From an uncultured Fidelibacterota bacterium (lineage in GTDB: Bacteria; Fidelibacterota; Marinisomatia; Marinisomatales; UBA1611): a stretch of DNA of 64,000 nucleotides. Positions 1,394 through 21,891 of the stretch are shown here, piece after piece (position 1 is the stretch's first letter; each line of letters begins with the position of its first letter). Below the pieces are notes generated by a model. The model was not told the origin of the DNA and made no database searches. It was given only the letters and a program-made list of their open reading frames with translations. The stretch spans positions 1 to 64,000 of the forward strand of contig CAJWLO010000011.1 of NCBI GenBank assembly GCA_913043235.1, read 5' to 3'. A program made the position numbers and the translations under genes.

Positions 1394-1394
1394 C

Positions 1395-2786
1395 TTAATT
1401 GTACCAATCAGTTGTCACATTAACAAAATGACCTTTTATAGCTGCCGCTGCCGCCATGGCAGGGCTTACCAGATGTGTTCTCCCGCCCCTGCCCTGTCGT
1501 CCTTCGAAATTGCGGTTTGATGTAGAAGCACAACGTTCTCCTGAATCCAGTTGATCAGCATTCATTGCAAGACACATGGAACAGCCAGGTTCCCGCCATT
1601 CAAACCCTGAATTCAGAAATATTTGATCCAACCCTTCTTTCTCGGCCTGATGTTTAACAGGACCTGACCCAGGAACTACCATGGCCAGCTTTATTGACTT
1701 AGCAACTTTTTTGCCTTTTACAATATGGGCTGCTTCACGCAAATCTTCTATTCTTGAGTTCGTACAGGACCCTATAAAAATTTTATCCAATGCAATATCA
1801 TTGATGACTGTTCCTTGTTCTAAACCCATATAATCCAACGCTGATTGAATAGATCCATTTTGTGAATAAGGGATTCTACTATCTATATCTATAACCATCT
1901 CTGGCGAAGTCCCCCAAGTAACCATTGGATTGATTTCTTCTGCGTTTATTTTCACAATTTTATCAAAAACTGCATTATCATCACTCTGTAGTGACTCCCA
2001 ATAATCACTTGCTTTATACCACAAATCACCTTTTGGAGCAAAAGGTTTTCCGCAAACATATTTCAATGTTGTATCATCGACTGATATCATGCTGGCACGT
2101 GCTCCCGCTTCGATGGACATATTGCAAATAGTCATTCTACCTTCCATCGATAAAGATCGAATTGCCTCCCCGGAAAATTCAATTACATAACCTGTTCCGC
2201 CCGCTGTACCAATTTGTCCAATAATCCTCAATATCATGTCCTTTGCTGTCACACCTGGTTTCAATTGACCATTTACCTCGATCAACATATTCTTTGATTT
2301 TTTCTGGATTAGACATTGGGTAGCTAATACATGTTCAACTTCCGATGTGCCAATACCAAAAGCCAAAGCACCCAAGGCACCATGGGTTGATGTATGGGAA
2401 TCTCCACAAACAATAGTCATCCCTGGAAGTGTCAAACCCTGCTCAGGCCCTATAACATGTACAATGCCCTGGTTTGGGTTCTCCATATTGAACTCCTTGA
2501 TCTGAAAGGAATCACAATTAAGGCCTAAAGTATCAACCTGCAATTTTGAAATAGGGTCGGTAATGCCTTTTTCTCGATCTTTTGTGGGGATGTTATGGTC
2601 TGGAACAGCTATATTTGTTTCAGTTCGCCATGGTTTTCTTCCTGCTAATCGCAACCCTTCAAATGCCTGGGGAGACGTTACTTCATGAATGAGATGGCGG
2701 TCTATATAAAGTAAACTTGTACCATCTTCATTTTCTCGAATTAGGTGGCTCTCCCAAAGTTTATCGTATAATGTTTTTCCGGTCAT
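1395..2786 (-). CDS. leuC: 3-isopropylmalate dehydratase large subunit
   Basis: Aconitase-family subunit (463 aa) carrying the 4Fe-4S cluster of isopropylmalate isomerase. The cluster cysteines are in [13 protein letters not shown] (first) and [11 protein letters not shown] (second and third). [21 protein letters not shown] and the late [22 protein letters not shown] are the family signatures. Full length, with leuD directly downstream and leuA 12 bp upstream. Part of the single ilv-leu transcription unit; no separate promoter is evident. Confidence 0.96.
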
Positions 2787-2798
2787 AATTATATTCTA

Positions 2799-4376
2799 TT
2801 ATACTGTCTCACTGATCGTTTCAAAAACTTCATTCATATCTTTCATGGCTTCATAATGATTCAATGCCTGAAGGTACGATTTTGCACTAGCCTTGATTGT
2901 ATCTGTAGATACACCTTTTCCTGTATAAGCGCTTCCATTAATTTTTAAACGAACAGTGACTTCTCCTTGGGCACCTTTTCCCGCTGTGACGGAACGAACC
3001 TGGTAATGTTCTAATCTCGTCTGGCTCTGGAAATCAATAGCACGATTGATCGCTCTGAAGCAAGCATCCACAGGACCATCACCAGTGGCAGATTCCTCAT
3101 AGGTTTTTCCTTCACTTTCAATACGTACAGTGGCCGTGGCAATAGTTGCTGTGCCTAGATTAACATGAAGATAATCTAAAGTGTAAAATCCCTGCTCGCT
3201 TTCAGCTTTATCCCCCATCAATATTCGCAGATCTTCATCATAAATCTCTTTTTTCTTATCGGCTAGGTCTAGGAAACGTTCATAATAATAATCCATTTTA
3301 TCCTCGGTCACTTCATAACCTAATGCCTTAAACCTTACAGAAAGTCCGTGACGCCCTGAATGGCGGCCTAGAACAATTTTATTATTCCTTATTCCAACAG
3401 ATTCCGGAGTCATAATTTCGTAGGTATCTCGGTTTTTTAGCATTCCGTCTTGATGGATTCCAGATTCATGAGCAAAAGCATTCTCTCCAACTATCGCTTT
3501 ATTTGGCTGAACTAGCATTCCAGTAAATCCTGAAACCATTCGGCTAGTATTATATATTTCTTCAGTTTTGATATTGGTATAATAATTCCAGTAATTGGAT
3601 CTTACATCGAGCGCCATAACAATTTCTTCCATGCTGGCATTGCCGGCACGCTCTCCAATTCCATTAATGGTGCATTCTACTTGACGGGCACCGTTGGCGA
3701 TGGCATTGAGCGAATTGGCCACAGCGAGTCCAAGGTCATTATGGCAATGAACACTGATTACAGCCTGGTCAATATTTATTACCCTTTTTCTTAATTCTGC
3801 AATTTTTGCGCCAAATTCTTCCGGCATAGTGTATCCGGTTGTATCTGGAATATTTATTGTTGTGGCACCAGCGCTTATAACGGCTTCCACAACTTCAGCC
3901 AGATACCCAATATCGGTACGCCCAGCATCTTCCGGAGAAAATTCTACATCATCAGTAAATGTCTTTGAATACTGCACCGCCTCGCAGGCCATATTTAAAA
4001 TAGTGTTCCTCTTTTTTTCTAATGATTTTCCATATCGATCTGCTCCAAACTTACCCTTAAGATGAATATCTGAAGTGCCAATAAAGGTATGGATTCTGAA
4101 ACGATCCGCACCATTCAGTGCTCTTTGGCAAGAATCTATATCGGCATCTACTGTGCGAGCTAGGCCGGTAACAATCATATTTACAGAATCGGCAATACGT
4201 TGAACCGCTTCAAACTGCGCTTGGGATGAAACCGGAAAACCTGCTTCAATTACGTCCACATTTAAACGTTCCATTTGTTTAGCAATTTCCACTTTTTCAA
4301 ACACATTTAAAGATGCACCTGGCGCTTGTTCTCCATCTCTAAGTGTTGTATCAAAAATGGTAACTTTTTCATTCAT
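2799..4376 (-). CDS. leuA: 2-isopropylmalate synthase
   Basis: Condenses 2-oxoisovalerate with acetyl-CoA, the committed step of leucine synthesis. The N-terminal catalytic TIM barrel is shown by [18 protein letters not shown] (residues 6-23), EAGFPVSS and the metal-binding HCHNDLGLAVANSL. The C-terminal third, with YHVNLGTATIATATVRI, GDGPVDACFRAINRAI and the final segment, is the LeuA dimer domain that binds leucine for feedback inhibition. 525 aa is the usual bacterial length. It differs from the cimA product at the operon end in having AGFPVSS in place of GGWPGSN. Confidence 0.95.
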   Translation of the reverse strand: MNEKVTIFDTTLRDGEQAPGASLNVFEKVEIAKQMERLNVDVIEAGFPVSSQAQFEAVQRIADSVNMIVTGLARTVDADIDSCQRALNGADRFRIHTFIGTSDIHLKGKFGADRYGKSLEKKRNTILNMACEAVQYSKTFTDDVEFSPEDAGRTDIGYLAEVVEAVISAGATTINIPDTTGYTMPEEFGAKIAELRKRVINIDQAVISVHCHNDLGLAVANSLNAIANGARQVECTINGIGERAGNASMEEIVMALDVRSNYWNYYTNIKTEEIYNTSRMVSGFTGMLVQPNKAIVGENAFAHESGIHQDGMLKNRDTYEIMTPESVGIRNNKIVLGRHSGRHGLSVRFKALGYEVTEDKMDYYYERFLDLADKKKEIYDEDLRILMGDKAESEQGFYTLDYLHVNLGTATIATATVRIESEGKTYEESATGDGPVDACFRAINRAIDFQSQTRLEHYQVRSVTAGKGAQGEVTVRLKINGSAYTGKGVSTDTIKASAKSYLQALNHYEAMKDMNEVFETISETV

Positions 4377-4378
4377 AA

Positions 4379-5491
4379 TTATTCCTTCACTGTTTCCTCT
4401 ACGATCGATGGTTCACTATAGTCCACATTTTCCTTAAAACTTTCAATAATGCAATCTCGCATTTCAGACGTGCTAACTGCCGTTGAATCATGATGTACAA
4501 TATCAGCTGTCCTGATACCCGCATTTAGAACTGTATCAATGGCTGTATTTATTTGTTTTGCCGCCTGAGGAAAATTCAATGTGATCTCCAGCATCATTGC
4601 CACAGAACTAATCATAGCAATAGGGTTTGCTATATTCTGGCCTGCAATTTCAGGTGCTGTTCCATGAACTGGTTCATAAAGGGCATGATTTTCCCCAATA
4701 CTGGCGGAAGGAAGCATGCCCAGACTACCGGTAATCATGGCTGCAATATCACTCAGTATATCCCCAAACATGTTTTGGGTTAAAATGACATCAAACTGTT
4801 TTGGATCTCGAACCAGTTGCATCGCAGCATTATCAATATACATATCTGTAAGGGGAATATGGCTATATTGCATATGCACATCATGTACTATGTTCCGCCA
4901 AAATTGGGAACTGTCTAAAACATTAGCTTTATCAACAGAGGTAACATGACCATTGCGTTTATCTGCTAATTGAAAAGCAACATGGGCAATTCGTTGTACT
5001 TCGTTTTTTCTATAACGAAGAGTGTTATAACCTTCCTTGTTGTTGTATCCTCGTGGTTCACCAAAATAAATACCTCCAGTCAATTCCCTGACTACAAGCA
5101 CGTCTGAACCAACAATCACATTCTTTTTTAATGAAGAAGCATCAGCCAATGGTTCAAATATAATAGCTGGGCGAAGATTTGAAAAAAGGCCGAGAGACTC
5201 TCGAAGTCTTAATAGCCCCTTTTCGGGCTTTTTTTCTTGTGGAAGATTATCCCATTTTTGGCCTCCTACCGCACCTAAAAGTACCGCGTCTGACCTTTTA
5301 CATTTTTCTAAAACAGCATCAGTTATAGGTTCTCCATAGACATCTAATGAAGCACCGCCAACTAATTCCTTCTGCAGCTCGAATTCCAGATTAAATTGAT
5401 TGCCCACAACATCTAATATGGCCAAAGCAGCATCAATTACTTCAGGACCAATACCATCACCTGGAAGAATCGTTAATTTGGTCTTGTGCAT
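4379..5491 (-). CDS. leuB: 3-isopropylmalate dehydrogenase
   Basis: Oxidative decarboxylation of 3-isopropylmalate to 2-oxoisocaproate with NAD. Family marks: LPGDGIGPEVIDAALAIL at the start, LRESLGLFSNLRPAI (substrate arginines), RELTGGIYFGEPRGY, DKANVLDSSQFWR, and the Mg/nucleotide region MFGDILSDIAAMITGSLGMLPSAS followed by EPVHGTAPEIAGQ. 370 aa including a short acidic C-terminal tail. It ends 2 bp before leuA begins. Confidence 0.95.
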   Translation of the reverse strand: MHKTKLTILPGDGIGPEVIDAALAILDVVGNQFNLEFELQKELVGGASLDVYGEPITDAVLEKCKRSDAVLLGAVGGQKWDNLPQEKKPEKGLLRLRESLGLFSNLRPAIIFEPLADASSLKKNVIVGSDVLVVRELTGGIYFGEPRGYNNKEGYNTLRYRKNEVQRIAHVAFQLADKRNGHVTSVDKANVLDSSQFWRNIVHDVHMQYSHIPLTDMYIDNAAMQLVRDPKQFDVILTQNMFGDILSDIAAMITGSLGMLPSASIGENHALYEPVHGTAPEIAGQNIANPIAMISSVAMMLEITLNFPQAAKQINTAIDTVLNAGIRTADIVHHDSTAVSTSEMRDCIIESFKENVDYSEPSIVEETVKE

Positions 5492-5509
5492 TGTACTTTT
5501 TCAAATAAT

Positions 5510-6553
5510 CTAAAGATTTTCCGGCCGCAATTGGCGTAACTGTTTACCAGCAACCCACATTTCTTGGTTATTCACCGCTGCCAACTCTTTTTCCAGTGTA
5601 TACCGGTAATCCGACTTTGAATTGGATTCGATAGCACGTTTAGCTTCTGCACCGCTGATTACCTTTTGATAGCATTCTTCAATGACTGGTTTTAACGTAT
5701 CTTTAAATTTAGGAGCCCAGTCCAGTGCCCCCCGCTGAGCCGTAGTTGAACAGTTGGCATACATCCAATCCATCCCTTTTTCCGATACAAGAGGATATAA
5801 ACTCTGTAATGCTTCTTCTATAGTTTCATTATAGGCTTCCGATGGTGAATGACCATGCTCTCGCAAAACTTCATATTGTGCTAGAAATGCACCCTGGAGT
5901 AAACCCATTAACACACATCTCTCACCAGTTAAGTCACTATGCACTTCTTTTGCAAATGTGGTTTCAAACAAATGGCCAGAGCCAATCGCAAAGGCTGTTG
6001 CTATACATCGTTCTCTGGCTTTACCGGTAAAATCTTGGTGCACAGCAAAAGAAGCGTTAATACCACGACCGGCCTGAAAATGAGTACGAACCGTTAATCC
6101 ACTACCTTTAGGAGCTACCAGAATAACATCAATACCATCTGGGGGGACAATTCCTGTATCATCATTGAAAATAACACCGAATCCATGTGAAAAATATAGA
6201 GCATCACCTTTATGTAAATTCTCTTTTACCATAGGCCAAGATTGTATTTGTCCCGCATCTGACAAAAGGAATTGAATAATGGTTCCTCTTGCAGTTGCTT
6301 CTTTAATCGAAAATAAATTTTCTCCTTCAACCCAACCGTCTTTTAGGGCTTTCTCCCAACTAATTCCTTTTCTAAGACCCAATATTACATCGAAACCTTG
6401 GTCCCGCATATTTAGCCCTTGTCCACAACCTTGCGGTCCATATCCTAAAATGGCCGTAGTTTCATTTTTTAGAATCTCTTTACATGTTTCAAAAGGATAA
6501 TCAGATCGTTCAATTATTGTTTCTTTGTATCCATTAATGTTGAGTTCTTTCAT
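5510..6553 (-). CDS. ilvC: Ketol-acid reductoisomerase, Bacteroidetes-like form
   Basis: Isomerises and reduces acetolactate or acetohydroxybutyrate, the second common BCAA step. 347 aa, short like class I enzymes. The Rossmann motif is ILGYGPQGCGQGLNMRDQGF (residues 36-55) with GLRKG following, and the knotted C-terminal domain carries the metal ligands in EVHSDLTGERCVLMG and ANCSTTAQRGALDW. GINASFAVHQDFTGKARER resembles the Bacteroidetes and plant sequences more than proteobacterial or Gram-positive class I enzymes. Lies between the regulatory-subunit pair and leuB. The cofactor preference is not decided here. Confidence 0.93.
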   Translation of the reverse strand: MKELNINGYKETIIERSDYPFETCKEILKNETTAILGYGPQGCGQGLNMRDQGFDVILGLRKGISWEKALKDGWVEGENLFSIKEATARGTIIQFLLSDAGQIQSWPMVKENLHKGDALYFSHGFGVIFNDDTGIVPPDGIDVILVAPKGSGLTVRTHFQAGRGINASFAVHQDFTGKARERCIATAFAIGSGHLFETTFAKEVHSDLTGERCVLMGLLQGAFLAQYEVLREHGHSPSEAYNETIEEALQSLYPLVSEKGMDWMYANCSTTAQRGALDWAPKFKDTLKPVIEECYQKVISGAEAKRAIESNSKSDYRYTLEKELAAVNNQEMWVAGKQLRQLRPENL

Positions 6554-6577
6554 TTTTTTCCTATTGATTAATGATGA

Positions 6578-7138
6578 TTAAAATAAAGCATCGCTTATTT
6601 GCTGCGTTGCCCAACTTTTTTGCCTACTGATTTCTTCTAAGTCAACTCGGTGTTCATCTTGACCTGATTCTACCATAGCCATTTTTCCAGAACGCATGAT
6701 TTCCATAATATTGAACTTTTTAAGTTTTTTAATTAGATTTTCTACTTCTTTCACATCTCCAGTCGCTTCTACAATGTAGATTGAGTCACAATTATCAATA
6801 ATTTTTGATCCACTAGATTCTATTAATTTTGTTAAAGCTATAAAATCATCAGGCTCAGATTTTACTTTTAACAAAGCATATTCCCTTATCACACTTGGTA
6901 TATTTGTAATATCCTTTACTTCAGAAACACAATCTAATTCAATGAGATTTTCTATTATAAGCGACTGATTATAATGGTCTGTGTGATTACAGACAATTGT
7001 AACTCTTGTTATACCCCTGACTTCGCTGTTACCTGCTGTAATACTTTCAATATTATAATTTAGTCTATAAAAAAGTCGAGAAATTTGGTTTAACACACCT
7101 GGCTCATCTTTCAAATATGCAATAACTGTTTGTTTCAT
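6578..7138 (-). CDS. Acetolactate synthase regulatory subunit, second copy
   Basis: ACT-domain protein of 186 aa. The N-terminal ACT domain opens with MKQTVIAYLKDEPGVLNQIS and contains the SITAGNSEVRGITRVTIVCN strand; the second half ends in EIMRSGKMAMVES, typical of IlvN/IlvH C-terminal domains. It is a paralog of the next gene upstream, sharing the MKQT start, DEPGVLN, GITR and MRSGKMAMV. About 60 bp separate the two. It probably binds valine, leucine or isoleucine and tunes IlvB. Whether the two subunits form a heteromeric regulator or respond to different ligands cannot be told. Confidence 0.9.
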   Translation of the reverse strand: MKQTVIAYLKDEPGVLNQISRLFYRLNYNIESITAGNSEVRGITRVTIVCNHTDHYNQSLIIENLIELDCVSEVKDITNIPSVIREYALLKVKSEPDDFIALTKLIESSGSKIIDNCDSIYIVEATGDVKEVENLIKKLKKFNIMEIMRSGKMAMVESGQDEHRVDLEEISRQKSWATQQISDALF

Positions 7139-7198
7139 TTTTAACTCTTTAATTAATTTTCAATATTCAAATTTTATCATGATAAAAACTCATTAGAT

Positions 7199-7744
7199 CT
7201 AGTTTTCAACTAATCTTTTTTTAGTCCAGTCTGGATCTGATTTTGTCAAATCCGGTTGATGATTTTGATTACTACCTGCTACCATAGCCATTTTCCCAGA
7301 ACGCATCACTTCAATTACATTATGTGAATCAAATCTGCTTATCATTTCTTCAACTTTGGTCTCATTTCCAGACAACTCAAGGATCATAGTGTCTTCTCCT
7401 TCTTCGAGAATTCTACAGTTATTGCTTTTGACCACAGTTTTGAAATCATTAGATCCTTCAATAATTTTTATTTTTATTAGAGCATATTCTCGTAAGTGAC
7501 ACTCAATATCCGTCGCATCGACCACATCATAAACATCAATTAATTTTTTTAAATTATTCACAACTATTTTTTGTTTGGTCTTATCTGGTTCATTTAATAC
7601 AATTGTCATACGAGTAATACCCGATTTATCTGTTCTTCCTGCAACCAAGCTATCAATATTAAAATTCCGTTTACGGATCATACTGGATACTCGATTTAGT
7701 ACTCCAGGTTCATCTTGAACATAAACAATTAATGTCTGTTTCAT
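7199..7744 (-). CDS. ilvN: Acetolactate synthase regulatory subunit, first copy
   Basis: ACT-domain regulatory subunit (181 aa) directly downstream of the catalytic ilvB, 11 bp away. N-terminal ACT domain with VQDEPGVLNRVSSMIRKRNF and SLVAGRTDKSGITRMTIVLN, then the C-terminal ACT-like domain ending EVMRSGKMAMVAGS. Of the two tandem paralogs this one has the usual ilvB-ilvN position, so it is the likely ancestral subunit. It would confer BCAA feedback on acetohydroxyacid synthase. Confidence 0.9.
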   Translation of the reverse strand: MKQTLIVYVQDEPGVLNRVSSMIRKRNFNIDSLVAGRTDKSGITRMTIVLNEPDKTKQKIVVNNLKKLIDVYDVVDATDIECHLREYALIKIKIIEGSNDFKTVVKSNNCRILEEGEDTMILELSGNETKVEEMISRFDSHNVIEVMRSGKMAMVAGSNQNHQPDLTKSDPDWTKKRLVEN

Positions 7745-7755
7745 TGTAGGCTCAC

Positions 7756-9483
7756 TTACATTTCTGATTCTTGGAATTGATTATGTACTGGTCTACTAAT
7801 CATTTCATTAAGATCAGCACCTGCTGGAACCATTGGATAAACCATGTCATGCTGCTCCACAACAAATTCAATTAAAGCTGGACCATTAACCTTTTTTACT
7901 TCTTGAACAGTGCTGGATATCTCGGATCTCATTTTGACTCGGAAGCCTGGAAGGCCATAAGCATCTGCAATTTTCATATAATCCGGACTACTTATAGGCG
8001 TCTCTTTATACCTTGCATCGTAAAACAGCTGTTGCCATTGCCTCACCATTCCTAGATAACCATTATTAATTATAGCAATCTTAATATCAGCATTTTCTTG
8101 AACTGCTGTTGCTAACTCGGTAATAGTCATTTGTATAGAGCCATCTCCAACAATTACCCAGATTTCCTTATCCGTTTTTGAAAAACTTGCACCAATCGCA
8201 GCCGGTAAACTGAATCCCATTGTCCCTAGGCCACCAGAGGTTAATAATGTATTTGGTTCTTCATGCTGAAAATACTGCGCTTCAAGCATCTGATGCTGTC
8301 CAACATCTGAAACAACGATAGCATCACCTTGAGTTTCCTTCCAAAGATCATAAATTACCTGCGCACCATAAAGAATATCTGACTGGGTGTTAATAATATC
8401 CCTTTCTAATGATTCGCTTTGCCAAGCCGTTATCTTTTTTAACCATTTATCGTTTTTCTTTTTATTTAGCATTGGGATAAGTTGCTTTAGCACAGAACGT
8501 AAATCGCCGAAAATTCCAACATCAACACGCACATTTTTATTGATTTCTGCAGGATCTATTTCAATATGGATCTTTTTGGATGAAGGAGAATATGTTTTAA
8601 CATTTCCTGTTACTCGGTCATCAAATCTCATGCCGCAAGCAATAAGAAGGTCTGCTTTTTGGATAGCATTGTTGACAGCAAATTCACCATGCATACCCAT
8701 CATGCCCATATTCAATGGATGACTGGCAGGGACAGCACCTGAGCCTAGCAAGGTCCACCCAATTGGTATATCACAAATTTCCGCTAATTCAATTATTTCC
8801 TTTGATGCGCCGGAAAGCAAAATGCCATGACCAGCAAGAATAACAGGTTTATTGGCTTGTTGGATCAAATTTACTGCTTGTTTTAGATCTTTTAACTCTG
8901 CTTTTTGAAGAAAATTATTTCCAGGGATAGTTATAGGATTCTGAGGATATTTAAATTTAATTATCTGCGTTTGTATATCTTTTGGAATATCAACTAGTAC
9001 AGGACCTGGACGGCCAGACCGAGCAACAGCAAATGCCTCTTTAATGGTAGATGCCAAGTTATGAATATCCATGACCAAATAGCTGTGCTTGGCAACAGGA
9101 ATAACGACACCTGCAATATCAGTTTCCTGAAACGCATCACTTCCAATCGCAGCCCGGGGCACCTGACCCGTAATGCACACTATGGGAACAGAATCCATCA
9201 TTGCAGTGGCTATCCCAGTTACCATGTTGGCAGCCCCAGGTCCAGAAGTGGCCATAGCAACGCCTACCTTTCCACTGGATCTTGCATACCCATCTGCCAT
9301 ATGGGTAGCTCCCTGTTCATGCCGGACTAGTACATGGTGTATTTTATCACCATATTTATTCAGTGCATCATATGCGGGTAATATGGCACCTCCGGGATAA
9401 CCGAATACCACATCCACACCTTCTTGAATAAGGCATTCCCAGATAATTTCTGCACCGGTTAACTCTTTTTGTAATTTGCCCAT
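7756..9483 (-). CDS. ilvB: Acetohydroxyacid synthase large subunit
   Basis: TPP-, FAD- and Mg-dependent enzyme that makes acetolactate or acetohydroxybutyrate. N-terminal TPP-pyrimidine domain with GVDVVFGYPGGAILPAYDAL and the catalytic glutamate in LVRHEQGATHMADGYAR; central FAD/Rossmann domain around residues 190-350; C-terminal TPP-pyrophosphate domain with the GDGSIQMTITELATAV to IINNGYLGMVRQWQ motif. 575 aa is standard. It is the second gene of the operon, 12 bp after ilvD. Confidence 0.96.
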   Translation of the reverse strand: MGKLQKELTGAEIIWECLIQEGVDVVFGYPGGAILPAYDALNKYGDKIHHVLVRHEQGATHMADGYARSSGKVGVAMATSGPGAANMVTGIATAMMDSVPIVCITGQVPRAAIGSDAFQETDIAGVVIPVAKHSYLVMDIHNLASTIKEAFAVARSGRPGPVLVDIPKDIQTQIIKFKYPQNPITIPGNNFLQKAELKDLKQAVNLIQQANKPVILAGHGILLSGASKEIIELAEICDIPIGWTLLGSGAVPASHPLNMGMMGMHGEFAVNNAIQKADLLIACGMRFDDRVTGNVKTYSPSSKKIHIEIDPAEINKNVRVDVGIFGDLRSVLKQLIPMLNKKKNDKWLKKITAWQSESLERDIINTQSDILYGAQVIYDLWKETQGDAIVVSDVGQHQMLEAQYFQHEEPNTLLTSGGLGTMGFSLPAAIGASFSKTDKEIWVIVGDGSIQMTITELATAVQENADIKIAIINNGYLGMVRQWQQLFYDARYKETPISSPDYMKIADAYGLPGFRVKMRSEISSTVQEVKKVNGPALIEFVVEQHDMVYPMVPAGADLNEMISRPVHNQFQESEM

Positions 9484-9495
9484 AAAAATTCCTTT

Positions 9496-11166
9496 TTATT
9501 CTAATACAGCTCCCCTGTTTGCCGAAGTAACCATCCGGGAATAACGGCCTAGATACCCATAGGTTATTTTCGGTATAAAAGGTAGTAGATTTTTTAAGCG
9601 ATCCTGTATTTCCTCATCGCTCAAATCCACATCCAATGATTTTTCAGGAATGTTGATTTTGATCTTATCACCTTGTTGAAGAATAGCAATAGGTCCTCCA
9701 TCTGCTGCTTCTGGAGATATATGTCCAATGCAAGCTCCTCTTGTCCCACCTGAGAATCGGCCATCGGTTATTAAAGCAACCTTATCACCCAATCCCATAC
9801 CCATAATAGCACTTGTTGGGGAAAGCATCTCGGGCATTCCAGGACCTCCTTTTGGCCCTTCTGTACGGATCACAACTACATCACCTGGTTGTACTTCATG
9901 GCTTAAAATACCATCCAATGCTTCTTCCTGTGATTCATAGATTCGGGCAGGTCCAGAATGAACCAGCATTGATTTATCCAAAGCAGCAGTTTTCACTACT
10001 GATCCATTTGGGGCTAGGTTGCCAAACAATATTGCTAGTCCTCCTTGCTCAGAATAGGGATCTTCAAGTGTCCGAATTACAGTTTGATCTTTAATTAAAG
10101 CACCTTCGATATTTTGTCCAATTGATTGTCCTGTTACCGTTAAACAACTCAAATTCAGAAGATCATTCTTTTTTGATAATTCATTCAAGATTGCGGAAAT
10201 ACCGCCTGCACGATCCACATCTTCCATATGAACATTCTTAGTAGCAGGGCTAACCTTGCATATGTACGGTGTTTTATCAGATAAATTATTTAATTCTTCG
10301 AGTTCAAAATCTATTCCTGCTTCCACAGCAATAGCCAGTGTATGTAAAACTGTGTTTGTGCTGCCTCCCATGGCCATATCAAGGACAAAAGCATTTCGAA
10401 TAGTTTCCGTTGTAATGATATCAAGTGGTTTAATATCCTGATGAACCAAGTCTACAATTCGATTTCCTGCTTCTTTAACCAATTCCATGCGTCCTTCATC
10501 TATAGCAAGTATAGAACCATTTCCAGGAAGCGCAATACCAAGGGCTTCCATTAAACAATTCATGGAATTGGCTGTAAACATTCCAGAACAGGAACCACAT
10601 GTAGGGCATCCTTCCTTTTCAATTTCGGTTAAATCATCTTCTGAAATCATACCACTCTTAACCTGACCTACCCCTTCAAAAACAGATATTAAATCTACTT
10701 TTTCCCCATTTAACAAGCCTGCTTTCATCGGTCCTCCTGATACAAAAATAGTCGGGATATTCAAGCGCACTGCAGCCATAAGCATTCCTGGCACAATTTT
10801 GTCACAGTTTGTTATACACATTAGGCCATCTAGTCTGTGTGCTTCTACTACCGTTTCAACACTATCAGCAATTAGTTCCCTGCTGGCCAAAGAATAACGC
10901 ATTCCAATGTGCCCCATAGCAATACCATCATCTACACCGATTGTATTGAATTCAAAGGGCACACCGCCAGCTTCACGTATAACATCTTTGGCTATTTTCC
11001 CAAATCCTTGTAGGTGTACATGGCCGGGGATTAAATCAGTGTACGAATTGGCAATACCAATAAATGGTTTCTGAAAGTCTTCATCAGACTGAATTGCACC
11101 CGTAGCCCGAAGCAGGCTCCGGTGAGGGGCATGTTCATATCCTTTTTTTACCTGGTCTGATCTCAT
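9496..11166 (-). CDS. ilvD: Dihydroxyacid dehydratase
   Basis: Fe-S dehydratase producing 2-oxoacids for valine, leucine and isoleucine. Cluster cysteines are visible in [11 protein letters not shown] and [38 protein letters not shown] and [20 protein letters not shown] are further signatures. I place the start at the ATG at 11166 (556 aa, [14 protein letters not shown]) because an AAGGA ribosome-binding site sits 6 bases upstream and family members begin here. The open frame continues upstream to a GTG at 11274, but those 36 codons are not DHAD-like and overlap the regulatory leader. First enzyme gene of the ilv-leu-cimA operon. Confidence 0.95.
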
Positions 11167-11238
11167 CAGATTCCTTTTTTTAGATGATAATGAATACCAT
11201 GAAAATATTTCTGCCAATCTTGCTGCCGGTTCAGATGT

Positions 11239-11365
11239 TTCAGGGGTGGAATAAATGATTGAGGAGAGTCTCACTCACCATTCTCACCGCCTGAATATTT
11301 TTAGTTCTTTCTAGGCGACCAGAATGGCGACAGTAATAATTAGTACTAGAATTAAAATATTCAGG
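11239..11365 (-). promoter_or_regulatory. Candidate ilv attenuator: mutually exclusive stems
   Basis: On the transcript, three segments can pair in two exclusive ways. Segment 1 (11354-11365, CCTGAATATTTT) lies inside the leader ORF and is perfectly complementary over 12 bases to segment 2 (11290-11301), just after the leader stop. Segment 2 also overlaps 11285-11295, TTCAGGCGGTG on the transcript, which pairs with segment 3 (11239-11248, CACCCCTGAA) with one bulged C. A ribosome stalled on the Ile/Leu/Val codons downstream of segment 1 would free segment 2 for segment 3. I do not see a U-run after either stem, so a classic intrinsic terminator is not evident; control by translation or Rho is possible. 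Pairing is seen; function is inferred. Confidence 0.5.
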
Positions 11366-11478
11366 TACTCAATAATAGATGCTAAAAGAATAGCCGGTGA
11401 ATAAACAATTAAATTGCTAAAAATCCCAGAGGGATGTATTCCAGCGACGCTGTAGTTGTCTTTTCTTTTTTTATCCAT
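11311..11478 (-). CDS. Putative ilv leader peptide, 55 aa
   Basis: A short ORF between the operon promoter and ilvD. It begins MDKKRKDNYSVAGIHPSG and ends with EYLNILILVLIITVAILVA, in which 13 of 19 residues are Ile, Leu or Val. Position and composition match leader peptides of BCAA attenuators. There is no good Shine-Dalgarno site before the ATG, and the hydrophobic end would also suit a single membrane helix, so a small membrane protein remains an alternative. Its codons include one arm of the exclusive stems described at 11239-11365. Confidence 0.5.
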   Translation of the reverse strand: MDKKRKDNYSVAGIHPSGIFSNLIVYSPAILLASIIEYLNILILVLIITVAILVA

Positions 11479-11485
11479 TATTTCG

Positions 11486-11511
11486 TACCGGGCTTTAATG
11501 AAAACCCGGTA
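11486..11511 (-). other. Strong hairpin ahead of the ilv leader ORF
   Basis: TACCGGG and CCCGGTA arms with a further G-U pair and three A-U pairs give an 11-bp stem closing a CATT loop on the transcript. It lies between the predicted transcription start and the leader ORF, 7 bases before its ATG. On the plus strand the hairpin is followed by ATTTTTATTATT, so it could terminate transcription arriving from the left on that strand; on the minus strand there is no U-run. It may instead protect or fold the 5' end of the ilv mRNA. Confidence 0.55.
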
Positions 11512-11533
11512 TTTTTATTATTGTGTATCCTTG

Positions 11534-11561
11534 ATAGTAAACATTTAATATATTCTGTCAA
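11534..11561 (-). promoter_or_regulatory. Predicted sigma-70-like promoter of the ilv-leu-cimA operon
   Basis: On the minus strand a perfect TTGACA (-35, 11556-11561) is followed after 16 bases by TACTAT (-10, 11534-11539). Transcription would start near 11527, just ahead of the 11-bp hairpin and leader ORF. The placement between asnB and the leader makes it the natural start of the operon. Confidence 0.55.
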
Positions 11562-13759: not shown

Positions 13760-15142
<1,383 letters not shown>

Positions 15143-15161
15143 TAAGAATATTACGATATAG

Positions 15162-15200
15162 GGATAGTGCTATCAAGGCCTAGCCTTGATAGCACTATCC
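15162..15200 (+). repeat. 18-bp perfect inverted repeat between metY and metA
   Basis: GGATAGTGCTATCAAGGC (15162-15179) and its exact reverse complement (15183-15200) flank a 3-base CTA loop, so RNA would form a very stable 18-bp hairpin. It begins 19 bp after the metY stop and ends 4 bp before the metA ribosome-binding site (GGAG, 15205-15208). There is no U-run, so it is unlikely to be a simple terminator. An mRNA-processing or stability element, or a partial translation block on metA, would fit. Confidence 0.85.
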
Positions 15201-15214
15201 AAATGGAGCGGTTC

Positions 15215-16015
15215 ATGAAAATTGCTGTCTTAAACCTCATGCCAAATAAAGTGGAGACAGAAAATCATTTGCAAAAAAGCCTGGGTCAAAATGATTATGA
15301 TATAGAATATACGTTTCTCCGGACTGCTACCTATCAATCCAAAAACTCTGACCCTGCATACCTAGAAGCTAATTATAAGATTATTGATGATATCATCTCA
15401 GAAAAATATCATGGATTTATCTGTACAGGTGCTCCCGTAGAAACCCTTCCTTTTGAATCAGTGATATATATTGATGAGTTAACTCAAATTATACAATGGG
15501 CTCGAAATAAAACATACTCATCCTACTACATATGCTGGGGTGCGAACGTGGCACTATATCATTTCTACGGAATTGAAAAAATTCTGCACGAAAAGAAATT
15601 TTCAGGGATTTATGACCATGATATTATTGCTCCTGGTGCAAATCTAATGAATGGTTTAAATGGTATAATCAAAATACCAGTCTCTAGATTTGCAGGAGTA
15701 AGAAGGGCTGATATTGATGCAGAACCGGATTTAGAATTACTATTGTATTCGGAGGAATCGGGTCCATGCCTTATTTCCAGTAAAGCACATAATGAATATT
15801 ACAATTTTAATCATTTTGAATATGATGCAGATACCTTGTCTAAAGAATATCATCGTGATATAAAAAATGGAATGGAAATAGATATGCCTGTAAATTATTT
15901 TCCAAATAATAATCCTCAAAATGAACCCGTTAAATGCTGGGGAATCCATGGAACCCTATTTTTTAATAATTGGTTACAGAATATGTATATTTATTCAAAT
16001 TCAAAAAAAGCATAA
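15215..16015 (+). CDS. metA: Homoserine O-acetyltransferase, MetA family, short form
   Basis: Acylates homoserine to feed MetY. The glutamine-amidotransferase-like fold shows LNLMPNKVETENH near the N-terminus, the catalytic cysteine in YICWGANVALYHF, the late catalytic histidine in NFNHFEYDADTL (usually GHPEYD), and MPVNYFPNNNPQNEPV. CTGAPVETLPF has Glu at the position that is Glu in acetyl-CoA-using and Gly in succinyl-CoA-using MetA, so acetyl transfer is predicted and matches MetY. I choose ATG 15215 (266 aa) for its GGAG site 6 bases upstream; ATG 15203 and GTG 15167 are alternatives. The usual first ~35 residues of MetA are missing. Confidence 0.87.
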   Translation: MKIAVLNLMPNKVETENHLQKSLGQNDYDIEYTFLRTATYQSKNSDPAYLEANYKIIDDIISEKYHGFICTGAPVETLPFESVIYIDELTQIIQWARNKTYSSYYICWGANVALYHFYGIEKILHEKKFSGIYDHDIIAPGANLMNGLNGIIKIPVSRFAGVRRADIDAEPDLELLLYSEESGPCLISSKAHNEYYNFNHFEYDADTLSKEYHRDIKNGMEIDMPVNYFPNNNPQNEPVKCWGIHGTLFFNNWLQNMYIYSNSKKA

Positions 16016-16145
16016 TAGAAGTCTGTATCGAATTTGCTTTAGGAAAAAGTATCTTTCTTACCTTAATTCTGAACTGATTTACAATATATAGAATACTTAA
16101 TTTTAAGATATAATATATATATTCGAATATTTAGAGAGGTTACAG

Positions 16146-18569
16146 TTGGCATTAGAAATATTAAAATTCGGTGGATCATCTATCGCAGATGCAGAAAAAA
16201 TTCGCCAAGTGGCCAATATTATCCGGGATAAGAAAAGTAGGGGCGAGATAGTCATTGTGATATCTGCTTTTGGTGGTGTCACAGATACATTGAAAGATCT
16301 AGCCGATAAAGCTGCTTCCGGCAAACCCAGAGATCAAATGTATGATTTACTGATCAAAAGACATAGGGAATGCATACATGATTTGAATTCACAAATCAAT
16401 AATGATTACCAATATCATCTTGATGAATATTTTATACAATTGGAATCAGATCTTTCATCGATCGCAAAAGCAAAACAAATCTCATCCCAATCGCAGGACA
16501 AAATCCTATCCTATGGAGAATTGTTATCTACAACAATTTTAGCGCAGTATTTATATCAAATAGGAATCCCTGCTGAACAATTAGATGCAAGAAAAGTCAT
16601 ATTAACCGATAACAATTTTGGGCATGCATACGTGCATTACCAAAAATCATACGACCGAATAAAGACTTATTACAAAGAGTGTACCAAAGTCCAGATAGTC
16701 ACCGGTTTCTTAGGAGCCACTGAAAATGAAATAACAACTACACTAGGAAGAAATGGTTCAGATTATACTGCTTCTATCTTTGGTGCAGCATTGAATGCAA
16801 AAGTGATTGAAATCTGGACCGATGTTGACGGAATTCTTTCCGCGGATCCTAATATTATAAAAAAAGCAAAAGCTATTCCCAGCATGACTTATGAGGAAGC
16901 AATGGAATTGGCGCATGCTGGAGCAAAAGTCATTTTTCCCCCTTCCATGATACCAGCCCTTTATAAAAATATACCCATTTTTATCAAAAATACATTTGAC
17001 CCAGAACAATCAGGTACAAGAATAGGAAAAGACCGTGCAGTTTTAGATGAGATTGTTGTGGGAATATCATCCTTATCCAATATCTCGCTAGTACTGCTTC
17101 AAGGAGCGGGTTTGGTAAGTCTAAAAGGTACTATAGGACGTATATTCTCAACTTTAGCAAAAGAAAACATTAATATAATTCTGATCTCAATGGCATTCAG
17201 TGAACATTCTGTCTGCTTCGCCATAAAACCAAAGTATAATACTGTTGCATTGAGAGCTTTAAAAACTGAGTTCGAAACTGAGATTAAACAGAAAAAAATT
17301 GATAGAATCAAATTAGAAAAAAGTTTATCACTTGTTGCTGTCGTAGGCGAAGGCATGCGCCAAAATCCGGGAGTTTCTGGTCGGGTCTTCTCAACTCTTG
17401 GCAGCCATGATATCAGTATCATCGCTATAGCTCAAGGATCATCAGAGCGAAATATATCTTTCATTGTAGATGATGCTGACGTATCTAATACCTTAAGGAT
17501 TTTGCATAATGAATTTTTTGAAAAAAAAGAAGATTTTCTGGATATCTACCTAGTGGGTACGGGCACCATTGGTAGTGAATTATTAAATATCATCAGTCAG
17601 CATAATATGAATAACATACGAATTTGTGCTCTTGGTAATAGCAAAAAAATGCTCCTTGGTAATGCTGCAATTAATCCTGTCACTGCAATAGATAATTTAA
17701 AAAAAGCTTCTGATCAATTTGTTTTAGATAAGTTCCTAAAACATAAAAATTTTGGATTAAACAGTAAAGTTTTTGTTGATTGTACTGCCAGTGAAACCAT
17801 CGCGAAACAATATGCGGATATACTAAACAATGGTTTCTCAGTGGTTGCAGCAAATAAAATCGCAAATACTTTGGGTTATGATTACTACCGTGCTATGCGA
17901 AAATCTGCCAAAGAAAGAAACGTTCATTTTCGGTATGAAACCAATGTAGGTGCAGGTTTGCCTATTATTAATACGCTAAAAGGGTTGCTGGTAGCAGGGG
18001 ATGAAATACTCGAGATCCAGGGTATATTGTCTGGCACATTAAGTTATTTATTTAATAGTTTTGATGGTCAAACTCTTTTCAGTTCATTAGTCAGTTCTGC
18101 TAGGGATAAAGGGTTTACTGAGCCGGACCCTAGGGAAGATTTAAATGGCATGGACGTGGCCAGAAAAATGCTAATATTAGTTCGAGAAACAGGCGCTAAG
18201 TTGGACCTGGATGATGTTTCTGTGGAAAGTTTGATACCGGAAGCATTGGGTCCAGACTTACCTGTGGCGGAATTTTTAAATCAATTTTCCAATTTTGATT
18301 CATTTTTCCTTGATCGTCTTAATAAAGCAAAAACTGAACAGAAAGTACTGCGTTACTTAGGAACTTGGGATGGAAGCAAGATTAGAGCTGGACTAGAAGC
18401 CGTGGATCAAAAAAGCCCGTTTTATCATCAGTACGGTAGTGAGAATCTTATCATGTTTAAAACTAGAAGATACCATGATGTACCCCTGGTTATCAAAGGA
18501 TACGGTGCCGGTGCCGGCGTTACCGCCACAGGAGTACTTCAAGATATTCAAGCATGTATCAAGAATTAA
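16146..18569 (+). CDS. thrA: Bifunctional aspartokinase / homoserine dehydrogenase
   Basis: 807-aa fusion that phosphorylates aspartate and reduces aspartate semialdehyde to homoserine. The kinase starts with LKFGGSSIADAEKIRQVA; GRNGSDYTASIFGAAL and EIWTDVDGILSADPN follow. A double ACT region lies near residues 315-455 (LVSLKGTIGRIFSTL, LVAVVGEGMRQNPGVSGRVF). The dehydrogenase has YLVGTGTIGSELL (about residue 470) and GLPIINTLKGLLVAGDEI. The start is a TTG at 16146 with GAGAGG about 7 bases upstream. A TATAAT-like box near 16109 may give an extra promoter. Threonine feedback is expected. Confidence 0.95.
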   Translation: MALEILKFGGSSIADAEKIRQVANIIRDKKSRGEIVIVISAFGGVTDTLKDLADKAASGKPRDQMYDLLIKRHRECIHDLNSQINNDYQYHLDEYFIQLESDLSSIAKAKQISSQSQDKILSYGELLSTTILAQYLYQIGIPAEQLDARKVILTDNNFGHAYVHYQKSYDRIKTYYKECTKVQIVTGFLGATENEITTTLGRNGSDYTASIFGAALNAKVIEIWTDVDGILSADPNIIKKAKAIPSMTYEEAMELAHAGAKVIFPPSMIPALYKNIPIFIKNTFDPEQSGTRIGKDRAVLDEIVVGISSLSNISLVLLQGAGLVSLKGTIGRIFSTLAKENINIILISMAFSEHSVCFAIKPKYNTVALRALKTEFETEIKQKKIDRIKLEKSLSLVAVVGEGMRQNPGVSGRVFSTLGSHDISIIAIAQGSSERNISFIVDDADVSNTLRILHNEFFEKKEDFLDIYLVGTGTIGSELLNIISQHNMNNIRICALGNSKKMLLGNAAINPVTAIDNLKKASDQFVLDKFLKHKNFGLNSKVFVDCTASETIAKQYADILNNGFSVVAANKIANTLGYDYYRAMRKSAKERNVHFRYETNVGAGLPIINTLKGLLVAGDEILEIQGILSGTLSYLFNSFDGQTLFSSLVSSARDKGFTEPDPREDLNGMDVARKMLILVRETGAKLDLDDVSVESLIPEALGPDLPVAEFLNQFSNFDSFFLDRLNKAKTEQKVLRYLGTWDGSKIRAGLEAVDQKSPFYHQYGSENLIMFKTRRYHDVPLVIKGYGAGAGVTATGVLQDIQACIKN

Positions 18570-18570
18570 C

Positions 18571-19668
18571 ATGAATCGAAAAATTCAAGTAAGCATCTTG
18601 GGAGCTACTGGGATGGTTGGACAGAATTATATACGCTTACTGGAGAATCATCCCTGGTTCCAGATAGTTGACGTGGCTGCTTCTCCTCGTTCAGCTGGAA
18701 AAACATATTCTGTCGCAGTCGGCCAAAACTGGCTCATGCCAGATCCAATACCTGTATCTGTTTCTAATTTGGTTATTCGGGATGTGCGAGATTTTGATTC
18801 TATTCCAAAAAATTTAAATTGTGTTTTTTCTGCCATGGATCTGCTAGAGAAGGAAAAAACTAGAAATTTGGAATTTGATTATGCGAAAGCCGGATTTCCC
18901 CTAATCAGCAATAGTTCGGCTAACCGGTGGACTAATGATGTGCCCATGATTATCCCGGAAATCAACCCTGATCATATAGATGTTATCCCAATTCAACAAT
19001 CCGGACGCGGGTTGCCACCTAATGGATTTGTAGCAGTCAAGCCTAACTGTTCCATTCAATCCTATCTGGTTGGACTGCATGCTTTGGAAGAAGCGGGTTT
19101 TCCTGTGGACCAAGTGCAAGTTACTACATTGCAAGCTCTTTCTGGCGGCGGACATGCCACAATTTCTAGCCCTGAAATGGTAAAGAATGTTATTCCCTAC
19201 ATTAAAGGAGAAGAAAAAAAAACTGAAAATGAGCCGCTAAAAATACTAGGCCACATAACAAATGAAGGCATTAAAAATACGGGCAGGATAAATATATCAG
19301 CTACCTGTACTAGAGTTCCTGTCATTGATGGACATATGGCTGTAGTTTATATTCGATTCAAGGATAAAAAAACATCTATTGATAGAATCAAATCCATCTG
19401 GAGAAAATACAAGGGAATACCACAGATTGAGAACCTCCCTACAGGTCCAGAGAAACCAATCATTTATATCGAAGAGGAAAATCGTCCCCAGCCTAAATTG
19501 GACCGAGATTTGGAAAATGGTATGGCTGTTACAATTGGCCGATTAACCCAAGATAAAATTTTCGATTTTCGATTTGTAGCTCTTTCTCATAATACAGTTA
19601 GAGGTGCTGCCGGCGGTGCTATTCTAATGGCAGAATTGCTGGTAAAAAAAGGATATATCCATGCTTAA
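18571..19668 (+). CDS. asd: Aspartate-semialdehyde dehydrogenase, archaeal/fungal-like type
   Basis: Reduces aspartyl phosphate to the semialdehyde, between the two ThrA activities. 365 aa from ATG 18571, directly after the thrA stop; the frame is open further upstream but only inside thrA. Rossmann motif SILGATGMVGQNYIRLL, catalytic cysteine in AVKPNCSIQSYLVGL, and ALSGGGHATISSPEM are typical of the branch found in archaea and fungi rather than the E. coli type. The end overlaps thrB by 8 bases. Confidence 0.93.
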   Translation: MNRKIQVSILGATGMVGQNYIRLLENHPWFQIVDVAASPRSAGKTYSVAVGQNWLMPDPIPVSVSNLVIRDVRDFDSIPKNLNCVFSAMDLLEKEKTRNLEFDYAKAGFPLISNSSANRWTNDVPMIIPEINPDHIDVIPIQQSGRGLPPNGFVAVKPNCSIQSYLVGLHALEEAGFPVDQVQVTTLQALSGGGHATISSPEMVKNVIPYIKGEEKKTENEPLKILGHITNEGIKNTGRINISATCTRVPVIDGHMAVVYIRFKDKKTSIDRIKSIWRKYKGIPQIENLPTGPEKPIIYIEEENRPQPKLDRDLENGMAVTIGRLTQDKIFDFRFVALSHNTVRGAAGGAILMAELLVKKGYIHA

Positions 19669-20596
19669 AAAATCAATTAGAGTTCGTGCAACCGCTTCTG
19701 TAGCAAATGTTTCCTGCGGCTTTGACTGCATTGGTTATGCAATTGCCGAACCATCAGATGTTATAACAATAACAACAAAGAATAAACCTGGAATTGAAAT
19801 AATCATATCTGGACCTAAAACAGATTCCATTCCAACCAAACCTGAAAAAAATACCGCAGGTAAAGCTGTTTTATCGTACTTAAACTCAATCAATCAGGAG
19901 CAGGGATGCGCAATAGAAATAGAAAAAGGAATACCTCCTGGTAGTGGAATTGGCTCTAGTGCCGCCAGTGCTGCTGCTGCAGTGGTTGGAATTAATGAAC
20001 TGATGGGTAACCCTCTGACGCTGGATGACCTTCTGGTCCATGGCATGGCTGGAGAAGCAGTAGCATCAGGAGGTTTTCATGCAGATAATATTGCACCCGC
20101 TTTATTTGGTGGAATGATCCTGATCCGTAGCTATGACCCTCTTGATATCCTGAATTTACCTGTACCGGAAGATTTATTCAGTACTGCAGTATTGCCAGAC
20201 TTTGTAGTTAATACCAAAGATGCTCGGAGAATGCTGCCAAAACGAGTACCTCTAAAATCTGCTGTTGCACAGGCTGGCAATCTGGCAGGTTTTACCCTGG
20301 GATTGCAAAAAGCTGATTTCGATTTGCTGGGCCGATCTATGGTAGATCTTTTCGCTGAACCAGTACGTGCCGAACTAATTCCTGCCTTCCATATTGTCCA
20401 GAAGGCAGCTATGGATAATGGCGCTATCGGCTGTGGAATATCTGGTTCAGGGCCAGCATTATTCGCTTTATCTGAATCCGAAGATGCATCCAGGAAAGTT
20501 GGTACTGCGATGGTGGACGCTTTTAAAAAAAATGGTCTAAACAGTATCGCATATTCATCACCTATCCATAAAAAGCACCCGGAAATACTAGACTAA
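19661..20596 (+). CDS. thrB: Homoserine kinase
   Basis: GHMP kinase of 311 aa that makes O-phosphohomoserine. N-terminal VRATASVANVSCGFDCIGYA, ATP loop GIPPGSGIGSSAASAAAAVV (about residues 88-107) and the C-terminal CGISGSGPALFALSES are clear. It overlaps asd by 8 bases and precedes thrC by 4, so the genes are likely co-translated. Confidence 0.95.
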   Translation: MLKKSIRVRATASVANVSCGFDCIGYAIAEPSDVITITTKNKPGIEIIISGPKTDSIPTKPEKNTAGKAVLSYLNSINQEQGCAIEIEKGIPPGSGIGSSAASAAAAVVGINELMGNPLTLDDLLVHGMAGEAVASGGFHADNIAPALFGGMILIRSYDPLDILNLPVPEDLFSTAVLPDFVVNTKDARRMLPKRVPLKSAVAQAGNLAGFTLGLQKADFDLLGRSMVDLFAEPVRAELIPAFHIVQKAAMDNGAIGCGISGSGPALFALSESEDASRKVGTAMVDAFKKNGLNSIAYSSPIHKKHPEILD

Positions 20597-20600
20597 ATCT

Positions 20601-21884
20601 ATGCGGTATTTTAGTACCAACCGACAAAGCACTGCTGTTGGTTTTAGGGAAGCGCTATTCCAAGGTTTAGCACCTGATAGAGGGTTATATCTTCCAGAAT
20701 CATTCCCTGAGTTTAACCGTACTTTTTACCAAAAAAAAATGACCTATATTGAACTGGCTTCTGAAATGATCCAGCCTTTTGTATCTGAAAATATTTCTTC
20801 AGGGAAGCTCTTAGATATTTGTAGGGCTGCTTTTACCTTCGATATACCTTTGGTTTACTTAATCGATAATATTTTTGTGCTGGAGTTATTTCATGGACCA
20901 ACCATGGCTTTCAAAGACTTCGCCGCCAGGTTCATGGCCCGCTGCATGGAATATTTATTATCAGATGAAATCACAATACTGGTTGCCACATCTGGCGATA
21001 CTGGTAGTGCTGTAGCAAACGGATTTTTTGGCCTGGATGGAATTCAGGTTGTAATCCTTTATCCTTCAGGTCGAGTAAGTGCAATTCAGGAACAGCAATT
21101 AACCACCTATGGCGGCAATATAACCGCCCTAGAAGTAGAGGGTACTTTTGATGATTGTCAGCAAATGGTAAAAGAAGCATTCCTTGACCAAAACCTCAAT
21201 CAACAATGCTCACTGAGTTCTGCTAATTCTATCAATATTGCCCGTCTTCTACCCCAATCTGTTTATTATGCCTGGGCCTGGAAACAGATTGGAACTGATC
21301 AATCAATTGTCTTTAGTGTGCCCAGCGGAAATTTTGGTAATCTTACTGGAGGCATCATTGCTAAACATATGGGACTACCTGTAGAAAAATTTATCGCCGC
21401 GACAAATGCGAATGATGTTTTCCCTAAATATTTAGAAACTGGTGAATTTAATGCTATGCCATCCAAACAGACTATATCCAATGCCATGGATGTTGGCATG
21501 CCCAGTAATTTTGATCGTATCCTGAAAATCTATAATGAAAATGTGAACAAACTTCGACGCGATCTTACAAGTTGGAGTTTCCAAGATAATGAAACGAAAT
21601 ATGCCATAAAATACACAAAGGATAAATTAAATTATCTTGCGGATCCGCACACAGCTGTAGGACTATCTGGTATAGAAAAATACAGACAGGAAGTAAATAA
21701 AAATCTCACGGGTATAGCCCTGGCCACAGCACACCCTGGTAAATTCCCCCAGGTGGTCGAACCAGTTATTAATGAAAAAATTGTCATCCCTAAACAACTT
21801 CAAAAATCAATGGAAAAAGAAAAAAATAGCATTATTATCCCTGCTCATTATTCTTACTTAAAAGAATTTTTAATTCACAATTAG
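20601..21884 (+). CDS. thrC: Threonine synthase
   Basis: PLP enzyme converting O-phosphohomoserine to threonine. The PLP lysine is in FHGPTMAFKDFAARFMARC, followed by ILVATSGDTGSAVANGFFGL and SVPSGNFGNLTGG. The N-terminal MRYFSTNRQSTAVGFREALF is typical of the 430-residue bacterial and yeast-like class; 427 aa here. It lies 8 bp before the next PLP enzyme. Confidence 0.95.
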   Translation: MRYFSTNRQSTAVGFREALFQGLAPDRGLYLPESFPEFNRTFYQKKMTYIELASEMIQPFVSENISSGKLLDICRAAFTFDIPLVYLIDNIFVLELFHGPTMAFKDFAARFMARCMEYLLSDEITILVATSGDTGSAVANGFFGLDGIQVVILYPSGRVSAIQEQQLTTYGGNITALEVEGTFDDCQQMVKEAFLDQNLNQQCSLSSANSINIARLLPQSVYYAWAWKQIGTDQSIVFSVPSGNFGNLTGGIIAKHMGLPVEKFIAATNANDVFPKYLETGEFNAMPSKQTISNAMDVGMPSNFDRILKIYNENVNKLRRDLTSWSFQDNETKYAIKYTKDKLNYLADPHTAVGLSGIEKYRQEVNKNLTGIALATAHPGKFPQVVEPVINEKIVIPKQLQKSMEKEKNSIIIPAHYSYLKEFLIHN

Positions 21885-21891
21885 GAAAAAA

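Follow-up and report, generated by a model that had tools for sequence, protein, structure and literature searches.

The window, a 64,000-nt stretch of DNA from a marine Fidelibacterota bacterium, carries on its minus strand a ten-gene BCAA operon that begins with ilvD, ends with a citramalate-synthase-like ORF, and is preceded by a short leader ORF and a series of potential RNA helices, all of them on the same strand (Table 1). The first-pass annotation of this DNA had described a ten-gene operon, and all ten genes are accounted for, with the two ACT small subunits and the last ORF identified by eye; an NCBIfam search of the two ACT subunits gave no match at the 1e-40 cut-off. The start of ilvD is most likely the ATG at 11166 (protein MRSDQVKKG, Shine-Dalgarno (SD) sequence AAGGA), because relatives align at MRSD; the mechanically called GTG at 11274 is not favoured on the same alignment. 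The untranslated gap between the leader stop codon and ilvD measures 144 nt.

Table 1. Features of the ilvD leader and operon (window positions).
Feature	Position	Strand	Remarks
Candidate promoter, TTGACA-16-TACTAT	11534-11561	-	TTGACA 11561-11556, 16-nt spacer, TACTAT ending at 11534
5' UTR hairpin, 11 bp	11486-11511	-	TACCGGGTTTT / AAAGCCCGGTA, one G-U pair; 5' of the leader ORF
Leader ORF, 55 codons	11311-11478	-	MDKKRKDNYSVAGIHPSGIFSNLIVYSPAILLASIIEYLNILILVLIITVAILVA; equal length in L003
12-bp stem of the first-pass annotation, 5' strand	11354-11365	-	CCUGAAUAUUUU; partner 11290-11301
P1 (a+b), 5' strand	11313-11330	-	UCGCCAUUCUGGUCGCCU; last six leader codons into the UAG stop; covaries with 11275-11292
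P2, 5' strand	11285-11295	-	UUCAGGCGGUG; covariation in relatives
P1, 3' strand	11275-11292	-	AGGCGGUGAGAAUGGUGA; overlaps P2 5' strand
P2, 3' strand	11239-11248	-	CACCCCUGAA; second stem of the first-pass annotation
ilvD Shine-Dalgarno, AAGGA	11172-11176	-	Predicted open at every ribosome position tested
Hairpin UCUGAU-GAG-AUCAGA	11156-11170	-	ilvD start codon inside; partly kept in L003
ilvD, dihydroxy-acid dehydratase	9496-11166	-	First gene of operon; TIGR00110, 8.7e-243; start shared with relatives
Rest of operon, nine ORFs	3-9483	-	After ilvD
ilvB	7756-9483	-
ACT small subunits, two tandem, acetolactate synthase type	7199-7744 and 6578-7138	-	Named by eye
ilvC	5510-6553	-
leuB	4379-5491	-
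leuA	2799-4376	-
leuC	1395-2786	-
leuD	749-1393	-
Citramalate-synthase-like ORF	3-770	-	By eye; ORF cut by window end

The perfect TTGACA of the candidate promoter described earlier is present, and the same TTGACA/TACTAT hexamer pair recurs in L003, which together with the window makes up the genus in our collection; matches to the consensus promoter occur in this stretch at chance level (three seen, 2.3 expected). The 11-bp hairpin that was said to follow the promoter likewise exists, and by eye L003 has a hairpin with compensated bases at this 5' UTR position. Taken whole, the leader (361 nt) has a folding energy of -95.9 kcal/mol, compared with -68.7 kcal/mol (sd 5.4) for shuffled sequences (z = -5.0). 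The leader ORF agrees with its first description as 55 codons ending in a tail in which 13 of the last 19 residues are Ile, Leu or Val (I/L/V), and in 3000 dinucleotide shuffles no ORF of 30 aa or more had such a tail, only 16 reaching 10 of 19. Between the window and L003 the tail has undergone five synonymous and three nonsynonymous changes, two of these being exchanges of I and V, and the head five synonymous and 19 nonsynonymous changes; a conserved tail behind a divergent head therefore points to selection on the I/L/V stretch.

Regions upstream of ilvD were gathered from the family, order, class and phylum of the window and from other phyla; the nearest relatives that carry a name belong to Candidatus Neomarinimicrobiota (now Fidelibacterota). 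An I/L/V-rich ORF lies 5' of ilvD in nearly all relatives collected, spanning three phyla, and the leaders can be divided into three anatomies: class A (the order of the window together with f16 and f30), class B (f20, Calditrichota and Ignavibacteria) and class C (the Fidelibacterota families f23 and f26-f29). Leaders of classes A and B have a longer ORF with I/L/V codons almost up to the stop codon; a curated set of 62, from Fidelibacterota, Calditrichota and Ignavibacteria, contains no terminator, and in every one the ORF ends 96-163 nt before ilvD. Class C leaders have a short ORF followed by a GC-rich hairpin and U-tract that passes a strict terminator test in 19 of 22 cases, encode distinct peptides that are shorter and hydrophilic at the end, and show the textbook antiterminator arrangement, in which the end of the ORF (e.g., GAAGGGG) pairs with the 5' strand of the terminator. 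The window, which was first described as having no visible U-tract terminator, indeed has none between the leader stop and ilvD, and so lacks what defines a transcription attenuator of the trp/ilv type. An Rfam search at gathering score linked the leader to no catalogued leader RNA, T-box and ppGpp types included, and membership in any riboswitch, T-box or ilv RNA family already known was therefore rejected.

Several further observations concern these upstream regions. Just past the leader stop in Calditrichota and Ignavibacteria, the stem of class B, GGUCAAUCCC / GGGAUUGACC, hardly varies between phyla, a conservation that seems to go beyond what pairing alone needs, and a motif like UAUCUGAAG recurs about 45 nt 5' of ilvD, between this stem and the gene (L029 and L142-L168, Calditrichota/Ignavibacteria). 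Two genomes, G163 (L106, L116) and G161 (L107, L117), have two ilvD copies apiece, each with its own class B leader. Short ORFs rich in V/I/L also occur 5' of ilvD in Chlorobia (L035, L036, L039, L040) and in Chloroflexi, among Anaerolineae MAGs (L047, L048, L052, L056).

The segment just 3' of the leader ORF can pair either with the 3' end of the ORF, forming P1 (11330-11313 with 11292-11275), or with 11239-11248, forming P2 (a bulged 10-bp helix of 11295-11285 with 11248-11239); the P2 pairing is exact in the window, and the two helices are mutually exclusive. Within P1, helix a involves eight bases of the leader ORF, located 20 to 13 before the end of the stop codon, and a partner segment 28-38 bases past the stop codon in most class A sequences; this 3' segment and the one before it also build the downstream hairpin, composed of P2 and an inner stem. 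Genus g7 is shifted, in that the leader stop of L004 and L006 falls 9 nt earlier relative to helix a, with the helix retained. Covariant P1 pairs include AUUC/GAAU in the window, GUUC/GAAC in L003, GUC/GAC in f12, GCUGUC/GACAGC in L007, GUCGUC/GACGAC in L004 and GCUAUU/AAUAGC in L008, and P2 appears in relatives as UUCAGG/CCUGAA, AACAGG/CCUGUU, AUCAGG/CCUGAU or GGUAGG/CCUACC. Between the two species of the window's genus, helix a contains a compensated A-U/G-C change.

For helix a and P2 over 17 sequences, with arms picked by eye at nearly constant positions, 95.8% of cells are paired, eight of 14 pairs show changes on both sides, and the covariation score is 0.423, against 0.196 (sd 0.019) for shuffled data and at most 0.176 for slid registers. 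Cognate partners outscored permuted ones in 20000/20000 permutations for helix a and P2 alike. A corresponding permutation test of P3, the outer stem of sister genera, is not relied on because its hand-picked registers bias it. In every class, the ORF and downstream sequence are more complementary than in synonymous recodings (Fisher: A, 3e-7; f20 of class B, 0.005; other class B, 0.003; C, 3.6e-6), these group statistics counting related sequences as independent; in the window alone the complementarity is not above synonymous recodings (p = 0.22). The locus combines two features of a general amino acid leader-peptide attenuator, namely a conserved short ORF rich in product codons upstream of the operon and exclusive RNA structures conserved by covariation, one of which includes the leader ORF.

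The first-pass annotation had set a different stem against P2, a 12-bp pairing of 11365-11354 with 11301-11290. This pairing is exact in the window and has three mismatches in L003, the only other genome of the genus, and was rejected as the conserved antagonist. Its proposal of exclusive stems therefore stands for the second stem, which is a conserved, covarying competitor, but not for the 12-bp stem, which is specific to the window; the alignment across relatives that it had called for likewise upheld the ORF composition and the covariation of the second stem only. As judged from the alignments, the conserved P2 antagonist is the more ORF-terminal pairing, P1.

The effect of ribosome position on these structures was modelled with approximate footprints and equilibrium folding, which ignores kinetics. 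In the full window leader P2 is favoured at equilibrium wherever the ribosome is placed, whereas helix a has a probability of 0.96 until the 3' strand of P2 is transcribed, and a P1/P2 switch in the window would therefore be kinetic. The same model predicts that L013 and L014 give up helix a (about 0.9) in favour of P2 (above 0.95) when the ribosome moves forward, that L003 switches only partly, and that L016 does not switch. Opening of the ilvD start site is predicted to cost more with a ribosome at the stop codon than with one stalled upstream in f12 with g6, f5, f30, f20 and Calditrichota/Ignavibacteria, where the group mean, not every member, lies above 40/40 shuffles; in the terminator-type class C leaders this closing is absent and the trend opposite. 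Translational attenuation is therefore predicted in those families. In f12, f20, f30 and f5 the ilvD start site can form a sequestor duplex, stronger than in shuffles, with leader sequence containing the freed 3' strand, and in several relative families the output most likely consists in this strand masking the start site or leaving it exposed.

The window and L003 behave differently, with a start-site switch that is absent or reversed (mean -1.5 kcal/mol; 38/40 shuffles as high) and no start-site sequestor duplex found in their genus (p = 0.33); g7 and f10 are likewise without a switch in the folding model. The SD sequence of the window is open in all states, at a predicted opening cost of 1.1-1.5 kcal/mol, and the start-codon hairpin is unresponsive to ribosome position. 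Start-site switching in the window is not supported across several start-site windows and ribosome positions, and the ribosome-dependent start-site access that defines a translational attenuator was not found in its genus. The initial suggestion that ilvD translation could be the output consequently fits several relative families but not the genus from which it was made.

Comparison among relatives establishes the leader ORF with its I/L/V tail, and shows that the predicted helices P1 and P2 are conserved and exclude each other. With a probability of roughly 0.75, we read the leader as an attenuator of the leader-peptide type, in which ribosome stalling would report the supply of charged Ile/Leu/Val tRNA to the ilvD operon. 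A ribosome that stalls near the beginning of the I/L/V stretch would leave the 3' end and stop codon of the ORF free to pair with the downstream segment as P1, while one reaching the stop codon would cover the 5' strand of P1 and allow the downstream segment to form the P2 hairpin; starvation would thereby switch the operon on, by an output that is not an intrinsic terminator. The translational-stall logic first proposed for this locus gains strong support from the conserved ORF and tail, the covarying second stem, and complementarity beyond synonymous choice. A broader and more tentative proposal, to which we give a little less than even odds, is that throughout Fidelibacterota, Calditrichota and Ignavibacteria the leader of ilvD acts by translational attenuation on trp-style logic, with other classes of the same phylum using a terminator by exchange of the output module. 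The chain of pairings would run from ORF to 5' strand, from 5' strand to 3' strand, and from 3' strand to the ilvD start site. If true, this would represent an evolutionary swap of output module behind one ribosome-stall sensor, at the same gene and within the same phylum.

Translational attenuation may operate in the window's genus too, if the equilibrium model overlooks certain pairings or kinetic effects, candidates being the start-codon hairpin and, in L003, a pairing between the SD and UCCC of the 3' strand of P2. The architecture equals that of families with a predicted start-site switch, pairing of the L003 SD with that strand is possible (-20.6 kcal/mol, p = 0.19), and the ilvD AUG sits in a hairpin; the constantly open SD of the window and the insensitivity of the AUG hairpin speak against it, and we regard this reading as plausible, with the odds somewhat against it. 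Transcription attenuation without an intrinsic terminator, in which P2 or ribosome position would gate Rho access to the 144-nt gap, is rather unlikely. It would accord with the terminator-less state of all 62 class A/B leaders, with the presence of Rho in the window's genome and in all 12 relatives searched, and with the missing start-site switch in the window's genus, but the gap has no obvious C-rich stretch by eye, and other terminator-less families have a start-site sequestor instead.

That the attenuator has decayed and is non-functional in the window's genus is improbable: the outer stem and start-site sequestor of sister genera are missing there together with the start-site switch, yet the I/L/V tail is kept between its two species and the change in helix a is compensated. 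Still less credible is a small membrane protein with incidental RNA pairings, which the basic N-terminus and the hydrophobic tail, similar to a transmembrane helix, would suit. The ORF has no Pfam match, its N-terminal half diverges freely while the tail is kept, its codons covary with non-coding downstream bases, and the peptides of terminator-type relatives are of another kind.

Attenuation of BCAA operons is textbook knowledge for Enterobacteria and Actinobacteria. The leaders described here were compared with the classical set of E. coli ilv/trp, the ilvB leaders of Corynebacterium and Mycobacterium tuberculosis, and the ilvB-II, ilvB-OMG and ilvB motifs, the terminator-type BCAA leaders being well described (PMC10272879; PMC13236596; PMC1262725). 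Common to both are an I/L/V-rich leader peptide before a BCAA operon, exclusive stems, and the blocking of one stem by a ribosome at the stop codon, and the class C relatives possess all classical parts, terminator included. Unlike classical attenuators, the leaders of the window, its class, and Calditrichota/Ignavibacteria have no intrinsic terminator, their I/L/V codons almost reach the stop, their target is ilvD, they have no Rfam match, and their length is about 50 codons, against the 15-17 usual for the ilvB-II motif.

A terminator-less Cys leader-peptide system is reportedly the subject of Canestrari et al. in 2020. Mycobacterial Cys leaders are terminator-less and without conserved terminator-like hairpins (PMC1262725); they share with the present leaders an amino-acid-specific peptide with regulatory codons beside the stop, and differ in responding to cysteine rather than BCAA and in the covarying alternative stems found here. 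The anti-TRAP (rtpA) leader peptide of B. subtilis, according to the passage that cites it in PMC11255114, senses uncharged tRNA-Trp translationally. On that account it, too, couples uncharged tRNA to the initiation of translation at the following gene, but it acts with a T-box on a regulator, whereas the present leader controls a biosynthetic operon and no T-box was found in it. Actinobacterial ileS T-boxes have SD-sequestering hairpins (PMC1262725) and thus join a normally terminator-based sensor to an SD sequestor, the output proposed for f12, f20, f30 and f5; their sensor is a tRNA-binding RNA, and here it would be ribosome stalling in an ORF.

The statement that no such leader had been described in this group agrees with our incomplete search of the open-access literature, which yielded no report of leader peptides in Marinimicrobia. 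Attenuators in Bacteroidetes/Chlorobi were reportedly predicted by Vitreschak et al. in 2004. The present results place BCAA attenuation in phyla that are largely uncultured, where it takes two forms distinguished chiefly by their output module; since both stand on one orthologous operon, when and how the change from terminator-based to terminator-less control took place is testable. Long and strongly structured, the leaders have no match in Rfam, and a new family could therefore be built from them.

Elsewhere in the window, a SAM riboswitch (RF00162, 13595-13704 on the plus strand, 85.6 bits) is the only Rfam match and is unrelated to the leader; 3' of it, on the plus strand, lies a cluster of methionine/threonine genes, identified by eye (13829-23034). 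The protein encoded at 24691-26235 on the plus strand has a C-terminal tail that by eye resembles a type IX secretion sorting signal (YPNPFNP).
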